In this document: one piece after another, positions 1,791 to 18,190 of the stretch
Position numbering within the stretch: position 1 is the stretch's first letter
How the letters are laid out: every line of letters starts with the position of its first letter
Assembly: GCF_003002925.1 (NCBI RefSeq)
Contig: NZ_PVTK01000004.1
Location: 124,001 to 188,000 of the forward strand
From: Vreelandella songnenensis
GTDB taxonomy: Bacteria > Pseudomonadota > Gammaproteobacteria > Pseudomonadales > Halomonadaceae
DNA: 64,000 nt
Direction of reading: 5' to 3'
The notes under the pieces: generated by a model
What the model was told of the DNA's origin: nothing
The model's input: only the letters and a program-made list of their open reading frames with translations
The model's database searches: none
Program-made: the position numbers and the translations under genes

Positions 1791-3926
1791 ATGTTCACCA
1801 TCGATGACCTGGCCGATCGACTCGGCGGCTACTTACCCCCGGACGAGATCCAGCAGGTCAAACGCGCCTTCTACTACGCGGAACAGGCCCACGATGGCCA
1901 GCGCCGTCGCTCCGGCGAGCCCTACGTCACCCATCCGCTGGCGGTTGCCAATATTCTGGCCAACATGCACATGGACCATCAGAGCCTGATGGCCGCCATG
2001 CTGCACGATGTCATCGAAGATACCGGCGTTTCCAAGAAAGCCCTGGCCGCCCAGTTCGGCAAGCCGGTGGCGGAGCTGGTGGACGGCGTCTCCAAGCTGA
2101 CCCAGATCACCTTTGAAGACAAGGCCGTCGCCCAGGCGGAAAACTTCCAGAAGATGGTGCTGGCGATGTCGCGGGATATCCGCGTCATCATCGTCAAGCT
2201 GGCCGACCGCCTGCACAACATGCGCACCCTCGGTGCCCTGCGCCCGGATAAAAAACGCCGTATTGCTCGGGAAACCCTGGAAATCTACGCGCGTATTGCC
2301 GGGCGGCTGGGCATCAACACCATCCGCATCGAGCTTGAGGATCTGTCGTTTCAGGCGATCCACCCCATGCGCTCCGAGCGTATCAAGCGGGCCGTGGCCA
2401 GCGCTCGTGGGCATCGGCGCAGTGCCATGCGTGAAATTCAGGCCTCGCTTCAGCAGAGCCTGGATGACGAGGTGCTACAAGGCACGGTGGTGGGCCGTCA
2501 GAAGCATCTGCTCTCGATCTACAAGAAGATGCGCGACCAGCGCAAGCCGTTTGCCGAGATCATGGACGTGTTCGGGTTTCGTATCATTACCGAAGATGTG
2601 GCCAGCTGCTATCGCATCCTGGGCGTGGTGCACAATCTGTACAAGCCGGTGCCGGGGCGTTTCAAGGACTACATTGCCATCCCCAAGGCCAACGGCTATC
2701 AAAGCCTGCACACCACGCTGTTCGGCCCGCGTGGCATGCCCATCGAAGTGCAGATCCGCACTCGCGAGATGGAAGCCATGGCCAACAACGGCATTGCCGC
2801 TCACTGGCTCTACAAGGCGGGACAGACGAGCCACCCGATTGCCGAAGGCAGCCACGCCCGCGCTCGCGCCTGGGTGAAGGGACTGCTTGAAATGCAGCGC
2901 CATGCGGGTAATTCGCTGGAGTTCATCGAGCACGTCAAGAACGATCTTTTCCCCGACGATATCTACGTGTTCACCCCGAAAGGCGACATCATGGAGCTGC
3001 CACAAGGCGCCACGGTGATCGACTTTGCCTACACCGTGCACACCGATATCGGCAACAACTGCATCGCCTGTCGGATCGATCGTCATCTCGCCCCGCTTTC
3101 CACGCGCCTGGAAAGCGGCCAGACACTGGAAATCATCACCGCCCCTGGCGCCCGCCCCAACCTTGCCTGGCTCAGCTTTGTGTCCACCGCCAAGGCGCGC
3201 TCCGCCATTCGTCATGCCCTGAAGCACCAGCAGCAGACCGAAGCGGTCACGCTCGGCCGGCGGCTGCTCAACAAGGCGCTGGCGCCGTTTGAAACCAGCC
3301 TGGAAGAGCTGGATGCCGAGGTACTGAAACAGGCGGTCAAGGAGCTTGAAGTGGCTTCGGAAGAAGCGCTTCTGGAGTCGCTTGGGCTGGGTAATCGCAT
3401 GGCCCACGTGGTGGCTCGGCGGCTGGTGGATGTCGCCCACGGCGAGCGCTACGACGCCCAGCTGGCGGAGCTGGATAGCGACAAGGCGGTGCTGATCAGC
3501 GGCAGCGAAGGCATGGTGATCAACTTTGCCCGCTGCTGCCACCCGCTGCCCGGTGACCCGGTGCTGGGCCATCTTTCCATGGGCAAGGGGCTGGTGGTGC
3601 ATCGCGCCGAGTGCCGCAATCTGGTCGAGCACAAGAACGACCCGGAAAAGCTCTTCACGCTGGAGTGGTCGGACGCCATCGACGAAGATTTCCCGGTAGC
3701 GCTGCGCATCGAGATCGAGAGCCGCCGCGGCCTGGTGGCCGAGCTTGCCGGCCTGGTGACCGACGCCGACGCCAATATCGAACGTATCGGCATCGAAGAG
3801 CGCGACGCGCGGCTCTCGACGGTCAATCTGACCCTGTCGGTCAAGGGCCGCGTACACCTTGCACGTATCATCAAGCGCATCCGCAATCTGCCGAACGTGG
3901 GCAAGATCACGCGTATGACCAATTAA
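1791..3926 (+). CDS. spoT: Bifunctional (p)ppGpp synthetase/hydrolase
   Basis: Makes and degrades the stringent-response alarmone (p)ppGpp. The HD hydrolase domain is intact: H48, HD at 72-73 and ED at 76-77. This favours SpoT over a hydrolase-dead RelA. The synthetase domain shows DVFGFR near 259-264 and RFKDYIAIPKANGYQSLHT near 290-308. A TGS domain (DDIYVFTPKGDI onward) starts near 389 and an ACT domain fills roughly the last 80 residues. Length 711 aa fits SpoT. It follows rpoZ by 23 bp. Confidence 0.97.
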   Translation: MFTIDDLADRLGGYLPPDEIQQVKRAFYYAEQAHDGQRRRSGEPYVTHPLAVANILANMHMDHQSLMAAMLHDVIEDTGVSKKALAAQFGKPVAELVDGVSKLTQITFEDKAVAQAENFQKMVLAMSRDIRVIIVKLADRLHNMRTLGALRPDKKRRIARETLEIYARIAGRLGINTIRIELEDLSFQAIHPMRSERIKRAVASARGHRRSAMREIQASLQQSLDDEVLQGTVVGRQKHLLSIYKKMRDQRKPFAEIMDVFGFRIITEDVASCYRILGVVHNLYKPVPGRFKDYIAIPKANGYQSLHTTLFGPRGMPIEVQIRTREMEAMANNGIAAHWLYKAGQTSHPIAEGSHARARAWVKGLLEMQRHAGNSLEFIEHVKNDLFPDDIYVFTPKGDIMELPQGATVIDFAYTVHTDIGNNCIACRIDRHLAPLSTRLESGQTLEIITAPGARPNLAWLSFVSTAKARSAIRHALKHQQQTEAVTLGRRLLNKALAPFETSLEELDAEVLKQAVKELEVASEEALLESLGLGNRMAHVVARRLVDVAHGERYDAQLAELDSDKAVLISGSEGMVINFARCCHPLPGDPVLGHLSMGKGLVVHRAECRNLVEHKNDPEKLFTLEWSDAIDEDFPVALRIEIESRRGLVAELAGLVTDADANIERIGIEERDARLSTVNLTLSVKGRVHLARIIKRIRNLPNVGKITRMTN

Positions 3927-16552: not shown

Positions 16553-16741
16553 ACCGCTGCGCCCTTCAATAGGCTTTGTACAAGTGTGCCAGGGTGACAG
16601 TCAATTATGGTCAAAGGTTGCTCATGTGCCATTTTTAACCAGTCAAACCGCGTCTTAACATCCTTGAAACCTGATTAATGCCAAATCTAGTTTTATATAA
16701 GTTGCTGTATTTTATTGATTTTATAATAATATGGCGTTTTC

Positions 16742-16757
16742 TGGCATCGCCTGTGCA
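16742..16757 (+). promoter_or_regulatory. Sigma-54-type promoter for the first small exported protein gene
   Basis: TGGCATCGCCTGTGCA contains the invariant GG-N10-GC of RpoN promoters (-24/-12). A start near 16767 would give a leader of about 86 nt. The 301 bp between phoR and the gene hold this promoter and its AT-rich upstream region. No recognised activator site was found. Confidence 0.65.
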
Positions 16758-16770
16758 ATAACCTAGACAA

Positions 16771-16845
16771 GGAAGACTACCGCAGGAAATGGTAAGCCAG
16801 GAAGGCACTTCCTTAAATTTAAGCGGTATTCACAGCGATCTAGGA
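16771..16845 (+). promoter_or_regulatory. GGA-containing leader, possible CsrA/RsmA target
   Basis: Four GGA motifs lie at 16771, 16785, 16800 and 16843. The second sits in the loop of a small hairpin with stem TACC (16778-16781)/GGTA (16791-16794). The last overlaps the ribosome site (TAGGAGACGG). The third is inside an AGGAAG/CTTCCT stem. This layout suits translational control by a CsrA-type protein. It is an inference from pattern only. Confidence 0.4.
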
Positions 16846-16853
16846 GACGGAAC

Positions 16854-17222
16854 ATGATGTCCAAGGAACTACTCAAGAAAGCTGGTATTTTAGGCGTAAC
16901 CTTTGGTCTTATGGCAAGCCCCTTTGCTTTTGCCCAAGAGCCAGCCAACCCGAGTGGCAACATCACTGCAGATGATGAGCCGATGCAAACTCAATCAACT
17001 GATGCTGGCGCAAACTCTGCCACTTATGATCAGGATGACCTGATTCATGAAGAAGGCGATGCGGCAACGGCGACAGATGGCATGGACTCTTCGCACTCCT
17101 CTACCCACACCGACAATGATCCGATGGGTTCAGGACCGACAGGCGAAACATCAGGCGGTGATACTACTTTCGAATCTGATGACCTGCCGAAAGAAAATAG
17201 TTCAGTTACCACTGATCAGTAA
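16854..17222 (+). CDS. Small acidic exported protein, paralogue A
   Basis: Unrecognised 122-aa protein. Residues 1-27 form a clear signal peptide (KK, then a hydrophobic core, then ASPFAFA before Q28). The mature part is acidic, rich in Ser, Thr and Asp, with no cysteine and probably disordered. Two copies of a short motif of the form [YF]-x-x-[DS]-[DE]-L-x-x-[DE] are visible: YDQDDLIHEEGD (58-69) and FESDDLPKENS (106-116). A second ATG at 16857 is possible. It is clearly paralogous to the gene at 17799 in signal peptide and motifs. It has a sigma-54-type promoter and a GGA-rich leader. Function unknown. Confidence 0.75.
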   Translation: MMSKELLKKAGILGVTFGLMASPFAFAQEPANPSGNITADDEPMQTQSTDAGANSATYDQDDLIHEEGDAATATDGMDSSHSSTHTDNDPMGSGPTGETSGGDTTFESDDLPKENSSVTTDQ

Positions 17223-17230
17223 TTGTTAGT

Positions 17231-17452
17231 TAAAAATTATTGAAGCCCTTCGCTCAGGAGCGAGCGAAAGCGGGATAGGGATGTCCCACTGTAAGGATGC
17301 TTATCGATTCAAGGATTGAATCAAGTGACAGTCACAACGTTAGTCAGGGTAAATTCCAAGGTTGGAGTCCCGCAAAAGGATAGGAAGCTAGCGTTAGATA
17401 TTGTCCAGTAGTAAAGCGATCAAGACCCTGCCACGGCGGGGTCTGATTTTTT
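17231..17452 (+). ncRNA. Candidate CsrA/RsmA-binding RNA (GGA-hairpin array)
   Basis: Between the two small-protein genes there are eight GGA motifs in about 130 nt (17257, 17273, 17279, 17295, 17313, 17364, 17378, 17383). Several sit in hairpin loops. A 7-bp stem TTCGCTC/GAGCGAA (17249-17268) has loop AGGAGC. Stem GGGA/TCCC (17272-17287) has a loop containing GGGA. Stem GATTC/GAATC (17306-17322) has loop AAGGATT. The array ends in a strong intrinsic terminator. This is the architecture of RsmY/RsmZ/CsrB-type sponges. No terminator separates it from the upstream gene, so it may be a 3'-UTR-derived RNA. The 5' end is uncertain. Confidence 0.5.
17423..17452 (+). terminator. Intrinsic terminator of the GGA-array RNA
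   Basis: AGACCCTGC pairs with GCGGGGTCT (one T-G wobble) around a 4-nt loop, and the stem is followed by six Ts. It closes the transcript that carries the GGA array. Confidence 0.88.
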
Positions 17453-17697
17453 GTGCGTGATTTTTTTATGTTGTCATGCCCGGCTATCTTCGTCTGCTGA
17501 GTAGATAGCGGCCAGGTGCTCAATGGAACAAGCAGCAACCTATCTGCTGTGTGTCACTTTTAAACATATACTTTTGGCGCATGTGTTATATTTGCACAAT
17601 AAATTAGCTGGCTATCTATTTGCGCGGCAGTTTTTAGTACACGCTGAAAATAAATAAGTCTATGAAATTAATGATATTTTATGAATTGACGTCATGC
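17453..17697. other. AT-rich intergenic stretch without a gene
   Basis: No coding frame is supported. A hairpin GCTATC/GATAGC lies near 17483-17510. TGTG...CACA dyads lie near 17582-17598, a possible activator region upstream of the second sigma-54-type promoter. Otherwise nothing is recognised. Confidence 0.4.
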
Positions 17698-17713
17698 TGG
17701 CATTGATAGTGCA
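17698..17713 (+). promoter_or_regulatory. Sigma-54-type promoter for the second small exported protein gene
   Basis: TGGCATTGATAGTGCA again shows GG-N10-GC. It shares TGGCAT, GTGCA and the following ATAA with the promoter at 16742. The start would be near 17723, giving a leader of about 75 nt. Confidence 0.65.
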
Positions 17714-17798: not shown

Positions 17799-18137
17799 AT
17801 GTTATCTAAAGTATTGGTAAAAAAAGCAGGTATTCTGGGCGTTGCCTTTGGTCTGATCGCAAGCCCCATGGCATTTGCGCATACATCCATCGAACTCAAC
17901 AAGGATCGCGGCGTAGGTGAAGTTCAAGACAAGCCGCAGTCTACCAACGAATCCGGCGCTGCCAGCTATTCGTCAACCGAACTCAACCATGGCGAACGCG
18001 ATCGCATGAACTCCAACTACACGCCGTCTAGCCAACATGAGCGTGGCGAGCATGGTTCACGCGCCCATAGCGGCAACAGCAATACGTACAATACCTCTGA
18101 CCTGACCCGCGACGAAGGTGATAGCACCGAGTGGTAA
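17799..18137 (+). CDS. Small exported protein, paralogue B
   Basis: Unrecognised 112-aa protein. Its signal peptide (residues 1-27, MLSKVLVKKAGILGVAFGLI... ending MAFA) is nearly identical to that of the gene at 16854. The mature part is hydrophilic and has three related short motifs: SIELNKDRG (30-38), YSSTELNHGERD (57-68) and YNTSDLTRDEGD (97-108). There are no cysteines. TCAGGAG precedes the ATG. Its own sigma-54-type promoter and a strong terminator make it a single-gene unit. A periplasmic or secreted role is likely; anything more specific is unknown. Confidence 0.75.
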   Translation: MLSKVLVKKAGILGVAFGLIASPMAFAHTSIELNKDRGVGEVQDKPQSTNESGAASYSSTELNHGERDRMNSNYTPSSQHERGEHGSRAHSGNSNTYNTSDLTRDEGDSTEW

Positions 18138-18164: not shown

Positions 18165-18190
18165 AAAGACCCCGCTACGGCGGGGTCTTT
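18165..18190. terminator. Bidirectional terminator between paralogue B and cysZ
   Basis: A perfect 11-bp stem, AAAGACCCCGC (18165-18175) with GCGGGGTCTTT (18180-18190), encloses loop TACG. A and T runs on the two sides allow termination of both convergent genes. Confidence 0.9.

Follow-up and report, generated by a model that had tools for sequence, protein, structure and literature searches.

The CsrA/RsmA-titrating RNAs CsrB/CsrC and RsmX/Y/Z (Rfam RF00018, RF00195 and relatives) are arrays of GGA hairpins with a terminator, and the GacA/UvrY box is TGTAAGN6CTTACA. Other regulatory RNAs are linked to sigma-54. CrcZ and CrcY are decoys for an RNA-binding protein (Hfq/Crc, not CsrA), and in enterobacteria the sRNAs GlmY and GlmZ are controlled by a two-component regulator, one of them being a protein decoy with RapZ as the partner. 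According to the available part of one source (PMC6296734), CrcZ/CrcY of Pseudomonas are transcribed from a sigma-54 promoter under the NtrC-family protein CbrB, the CbrB sites are non-palindromic triplets, and CbrAB is exclusive to Pseudomonads. RNAs that bind CsrA/RsmA have also been traced to 3' UTRs: RsmW of Pseudomonas aeruginosa belongs to the 3' UTR of PA4570 (PMC4950607, in part), and RsmU of Xanthomonas campestris, which binds RsmA, is processed from the 3' UTR of a comEA-like mRNA (PMC7694677, in part). Both 3'-UTR RNAs of this kind and sigma-54-controlled decoy RNAs are therefore already known. For Halomonas, the table of a 2020 review, seen as an extract, gives the sRNA partner of CsrA as unknown (PMC7366521).

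The locus described here lies in a 64-kb window (the whole stretch of DNA that was analysed) from a halophilic marine bacterium. We estimate a probability of roughly 0.6 that the region specifies a CsrA-titrating RNA under sigma-54 and two-component control, usually co-transcribed with a small exported protein. Sequence comparison reveals a structured RNA, its GGA motifs, a promoter and an upstream element, a constant linkage and the co-occurrence of a regulator; from these we infer transcription, CsrA binding and titration, binding of the regulator to the element, and processing. The result would be a candidate RNA family, regulator and element for a biotechnologically used genus.

The hairpin array and its neighbouring genes

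The RNA and the genes and control sites around it comprise the following features, as read from the window.

16623..16641, + strand: putative site for an upstream activator, CATGTGCCATTTTTAACCA, which precedes the -24 element by 119 bp
16742..16757, + strand: sigma-54-type -24/-12 promoter TGGCATCGCCTGTGCA, GG-N10-GC
16768..16853, + strand: predicted mRNA 5' leader (start inferred), GGA-rich, with one GGA in the ribosome-binding site
16854..17222, + strand: SEP1, open reading frame for a small acidic exported protein of 122 aa with a signal-peptide-like start
17249..17268, + strand: hairpin H1 of the MFE fold; loop AGGAGC with GGA 17257, stem TTCGCTC/GAGCGAA
17272..17287, + strand: hairpin H2; loop GGGA with GGA 17279, GGGA/TCCC inside; covariation
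17290..17301, + strand: hairpin H3; loop AGGA with GGA 17295; covariation
17306..17322, + strand: hairpin H4; stem GATTC/GAATC, GGA 17313 in the loop
17327..17405, + strand: hyperconserved 3' core; covariation and invariant loop GGAs
17327-17332/17400-17405 and 17338-17344/17387-17393, + strand: outer stems of the 3' core; covariation
17347-17349/17369-17371 (GGG/CCC) and hairpin 17355-17366, + strand: inner parts of the 3' core
17372-17386, + strand: internal loop of the 3' core, containing GGA 17378 and 17383
17423..17451, + strand: intrinsic terminator (hairpin 17423-17444) and T run, from a terminator scan; present in the aligned copies
17580..17713, + strand: second element CATGTGTTA at 17580 and sigma-54-type promoter 17698-17713, spaced by 118 bp, before SEP2
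17799..18137, + strand: SEP2, open reading frame for a paralogous small exported protein of 112 aa; a terminator follows, but no RNA

The initial annotation had reported eight GGA motifs in about 130 nt, and the count agrees, with GGA at 17257, 17273, 17279, 17295, 17313, 17364, 17378 and 17383 (a span of 129 nt). All three GGA-loop stems that it named recur in the predicted fold, which adds a fourth GGA hairpin at 17290-17301 and places two of the eight motifs, 17273 and 17364, in stems rather than loops. The terminator proposed for the end of the array is also found there (17423-17444 and the T run). The fold energy of the RNA stretch is -75.6 kcal/mol versus -59.5 (sd 4.7) for 200 shuffles, a z of -3.4. 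Of all 222-base stretches on the plus strand of the window, the RNA stretch itself included, 0.96% contain at least eight GGA; GGA density alone is thus not unique, and conservation has to decide.

A consensus scan of the window detects no terminator-like site between the stop of SEP1 (17222) and the RNA terminator, and no promoter-like one between gene and RNA, which agrees with the earlier statement that no terminator separates the small exported protein gene from the RNA. Relatives of SEP1, 32-92% identical, were recognized in 23 loci, and the family has no Pfam or NCBIfam match. The terminator repeat that follows SEP2 is situated at 18168.

Distribution and conservation of the RNA

Among 275 genomes of the family searched at the DNA level, 115 have some match to the promoter, leader, gene or RNA. 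A covariance model built from 39 distinct RNA copies (R1) detects the RNA in 69 of the 275, all of them among the 82 members of the window's genus (Vreelandella/Halomonas), the named relatives that bear it being Vreelandella and Halomonas. A search with R1 over 293 genomes of the order, under stricter filters that may miss weak relatives, gave five matches, every one within the genus. The window's genome has a single copy, and 21 loci have two, which brings the total to 90 copies in 69 genomes. The RNA is located downstream of phoR in 69/69 loci, with phoB and phoR directly upstream in all, and convergent cysZ follows in 66 (it is missing from the stretches examined of L123, L131 and L150). 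The genus members in which R1 finds no RNA have a phoR match in 12/13 cases; in eight of these 12, cysZ or phoU begins 25-89 bp after phoR, in L215 it begins 551 bp after phoR with another reading frame between, and in L209, L217 and L218 neither gene is present in the phoR flank examined. R1 finds the RNA in none of 30 genomes of other genera, many of which have phoR closely followed by cysZ or phoU. A second model, R2, run on 35 loci (among them that of the GacA-box RNA, small-protein loci of other genera and RNA-negative loci), gave one weak match, with an E-value of 0.67 in L173, a locus of another genus; it covers a GGA-rich, terminator-ended stretch (2240-2335, minus strand) before a cold-shock-like gene.

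The small-protein gene is present in 56 of the 69 RNA loci and absent from 13, and in 12 of these 13 the promoter is situated 70-164 nt before the start of the RNA model. The proposal that the RNA might be a 3'-UTR product therefore fits most lineages, the window included, where the RNA is co-directional behind SEP1 with no terminator between as in RsmW and RsmU; it does not fit the RNA itself, which stands alone in the remaining 13/69. Mapped on a PhoR tree of 85 rows, the state 'no RNA' takes three changes and 'RNA without gene' five. L165, which branches deepest among the RNA-bearing loci, lacks the small-protein gene; the gene may therefore have been inserted later. The same RNA as a 3' UTR in some loci and stand-alone in others provides a natural comparison, and the evolution of a 3'-UTR sponge becomes testable.

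Compensatory changes in the stems of relatives, which had been suggested as a check, were indeed found. In an alignment of 40 copies (A2), chosen to span the diversity of the 89 distinct ones, 88.4% of cells are paired, and 19 pairs and 105 cells are changed on both sides, for a structure derived partly from the same sequences. None of 500 shuffles, a control that ignores relatedness, was as high on the pairing and double-change measures. Sliding the pairing partners, which keeps relatedness, gave at most 44% paired, 13 pairs and 39 double-change cells. An alignment of 39 copies (A1) shows two-sided changes in 14 pairs and 55 cells; its +1 slide reaches 15 pairs, above the 14 real ones, but only 39 cells and 39% paired. 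The weaker helices are H2, with covariation in 4/6 pairs and 72% of cells paired, and H3 (3/4 pairs, 77%). In relatives H2 reads GGGGCA-AGGA-TGTCCC. H4 is paired in 95% of cells, and the outer stems of the 3' core covary in 5/6 and 4/7 pairs. By these comparisons the RNA is conserved and structured.

The expectation of conserved loop GGAs was likewise confirmed, at four sites in 89-90 of the 90 copies. Both loop sites of the core have GGA in 90/90 copies, H3 in 89/90 and H4 in 89/90. Only 57 copies have the H4 motif in the same alignment column, indicating that it survives a shift of loop register. H2 retains GGA in 66/90 copies (lost in 24), and a GGA near the H1 place occurs in 52 (absent in 38). 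In predicted folds, hairpin-loop GGAs number 2.23 per copy versus 0.49 in dinucleotide shuffles, and unpaired GGAs 4.18 versus 1.37, with a moderate rise in total GGA (6.8 versus 4.6, minimum 3). The sequence CARGGATG, which we take to resemble the core of the CsrA consensus, occurs in 58/90 copies versus 0.009 per shuffled copy.

Likeness to known RNAs and the question of the partner

The initial annotation made the absence of a csrA gene an argument against a sponge; csrA is present in 19/19 genomes tested and in one copy in the window's genome, with L4 and R44, presumably RNA-binding residues of CsrA. Roles of these residues in RNA binding are named for RsmE in the available part of PMC4950607. 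Several GGAs lie in hairpin loops or unpaired, as in the CsrA/RsmA-titrating class. The RNA has the anatomy of a CsrA/RsmA sponge, and it would be expected to bind CsrA.

A likeness to the CsrB/RsmY/RsmZ architecture had been proposed, and it stands as far as the GGA hairpins and the following terminator go. Membership of those families does not: the Rfam search suggested earlier returned no match in the window at the gathering score, and the best lax match was RsmY with 13.1 bits versus a cut-off of 57. Matches at lax E-values yielded no convincing family and were discarded, the RsmY ones being weak and mostly at other terminators. The CsrB model, which does give a match in E. coli, has none in the window's whole genome. 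CsrB/CsrC and RsmX/Y/Z are further distinguished by the GacA box, which is lacking here.

As far as the accessible portions of the two papers describe them, RsmW and RsmU are closer in arrangement. RsmW shares with the new RNA the binding of RsmA/CsrA (here predicted), the GGA loops and the position behind a small ORF without a terminator between, and it is raised in gacA mutants and not driven by GacA, just as the new RNA is without a GacA box (PMC4950607). The two differ in sequence, upstream gene and promoter, the new RNA having sigma-54 with its element, the core and stand-alone loci. RsmU is similarly genus-limited, belongs to the 3' UTR of a periplasmic-protein mRNA and is outside known sRNA families; in contrast, its host gene is unrelated, its binding partly survives loss of GGA, and no sigma-54 link is reported in that portion (PMC7694677). 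CrcZ/CrcY, in the part of PMC6296734 available, resemble the new RNA as regulatory RNAs with a sigma-54 promoter and an NtrC-family response regulator (here a candidate). GlmY/GlmZ are unrelated to it in sequence and structure as far as Rfam shows. Among open-licence PMC papers we came across neither this RNA nor any CsrA sponge driven by sigma-54, and the RNA is apparently undescribed.

The notion of a simple GGA array, as in a plain sponge, covers the hairpins, but much of the conservation lies beyond the array, in the structured 3' core, which is the most conserved part and would be superfluous in a plain sponge. The core may serve a second partner. Taken further, this gives a tentative two-module picture in which 5' GGA hairpins titrate CsrA and the 3' core serves a second factor, under dedicated sigma-54 two-component control together with exported acidic proteins. 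A signal from the envelope or from osmotic change would then reach the CsrA pool without GacS/GacA, and protein and sponge would come from one transcript.

The same observations can be turned against CsrA as the main partner. The core (GTCAGGG...CCAnGGTTGG...CCCGCAnAnGGAnnGGAAGC) might bind another protein or RNA, with CsrA contact via the GGA hairpins being secondary, for instance in controlling RNA stability. Hairpins aside, it is the core that has the longest invariant stretches, and the 4-nt hairpin of the core has AGGT-like loops with GGA in 0/90 copies and is yet nearly invariant. We nevertheless regard this reading as unlikely, given that the unpaired trinucleotides that hardly vary are GGA itself or, overlapping it, GAT, GAA, AAG and AGC, and that the 5' hairpins retain GGA too. 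Less probable still is a purely cis-acting 3' UTR, whereby CsrA or some other protein would attach to the leader and the 3' UTR and so govern how stable the small-protein mRNA is or how well it is translated, with no titration in trans. The co-directional arrangement in the window, without a terminator or promoter-like site between gene and RNA, and the likewise GGA-rich leader would suit it, whereas the RNA occurs without the gene in 13/69 loci and as two copies in 21. That the RNA is an Hfq-type base-pairing sRNA seems very improbable, as its conserved unpaired sequence is centred on GGA, even though an intrinsic terminator with a T run and conserved single-stranded stretches are present. 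Conservation and covariation in 69 genomes refute, as far as the sequence conservation goes, a chance cluster of GGAs at an ordinary intergenic terminator, for which the 0.96% of window stretches of such density might speak.

Promoter, upstream element and a candidate activator

The sigma-54-type promoter assigned earlier to the upstream gene holds up well (16742-16757, kept in 67/69 loci). CATGTGYCA is found in 68/69 RNA loci, and a GG-N10-GC promoter follows 108-121 bp downstream in 67 of the 69 (117-121 bp in 64); such a distal element at fixed spacing is what a sigma-54-dependent sRNA would be expected to have. T-G-G and T-G-C are invariant in 67/67 loci with a promoter at that spacing. 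The exceptions by pattern are L136, which has the element without a promoter, and L147, with a variant element; the -24 sequence is weak (TGGAAT) in L132 and L135. Spacing between element and promoter is alike with and without the small-protein gene. On both strands of the window only two such pairs exist, those of SEP1 and SEP2, and the sole exact genome match of the 19-mer element is the window site 16623..16641.

GacA was rejected as the driver: a genome scan allowing up to two mismatches has no GacA box near C4:140,600-141,460 among the matches listed, C4 included. Elsewhere in the genome, a perfect GacA box at L094 (G000:C3, about 84,780-84,980) precedes a GGA-rich, terminator-ended stretch that looks like a conventional Rsm-type RNA and is unmatched in Rfam. 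By eye, two further perfect boxes (L093 and L096; G000:C2:411853 and C6:200743) precede type VI secretion-like frames.

The element also occurs with one mismatch at C1:699445, 99 bp before a GG-N10-GC promoter in front of a gene for a small acidic lipoprotein. This gene adjoins those of an NtrC-family response regulator, with receiver, sigma-54 activation and Fis-type HTH parts, and of a histidine kinase (HAMP, HisKA; a weak CusS-type sensor). There are six other element-like places in the genome, one of them the window's and another, C5:132062, inside an ORF. Of the 69 RNA-positive genomes, 67 have the response regulator (partial in G223), the two without it (G213 and G266) being assemblies that are 80% and 74% complete. 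In the RNA-negative genomes it is found in 2/13 (G231 and G273), as partial matches only; these begin at residue 131 or 135, that is, without the receiver part. In a chosen set the regulator occurs in 16/16 RNA-positive, 0/8 RNA-negative and 6/6 other-genus genomes. The element and promoter stand beside the regulator gene in 9/22 loci (4/16 in the genus and 5/6 in other genera); they were not found there in 12 of the 16 genus loci, and the sixth other-genus genome has them in another stretch. No NCBIfam name applies at the curated cut-off, and the regulator is therefore left without a name; CbrB was considered and rejected, as CbrAB is called exclusive to Pseudomonads in the part of PMC6296734 available. 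On the PhoR tree, absence of the RNA and absence of the regulator coincide in about three lineages only, so that a formal P for their co-occurrence overstates the case. The element is thus tied to the regulator by association, across about three independent losses.

On the CsrA-titration reading, a signal read by the kinase would activate the NtrC-family response regulator, which would bind the CATGTGYCA element, and sigma-54 RNA polymerase would start a transcript at about 16768. In 56/69 loci, including the window's, the transcript would pass through the small-protein gene into the RNA and end at the RNA terminator, so that one signal would give both protein and RNA; the small acidic protein would be exported and the RNA would act as a 3' UTR or once processed. 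The 13 geneless loci would make the RNA alone from the same promoter. Predicted folding gives the RNA three to four hairpins with GGA in the loop, besides a core of several helices where two further GGAs are left unpaired; the RNA may bind several CsrA dimers, relieving CsrA control of other mRNAs. If this is true, CsrA titration is under sigma-54 here instead of GacA. In the 54 leaders recognized, GGA averages 3.7 versus 2.1 in mononucleotide shuffles; with so GGA-rich a leader, CsrA may also hold back translation of the small protein, which would tie protein output to the sponge.

The leader (16768-16853) is conserved and contains a possible long-range pair, TAAGGAAGA/TCTTCCTTA. A pseudoknot in which this pair crosses CCGC/GCGG was noticed by eye and rejected, the second helix being lost in L110 and L118. 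In other genera, 8/11 small-protein loci carry the pair of element and promoter, and in L170 and L174 the pair precedes a neighbouring lipoprotein gene. L227 encodes a small acidic lipoprotein (3416-3856, minus strand) with the same element and sigma-54-type promoter, beside two-component genes and followed by proVW-like transporter genes.
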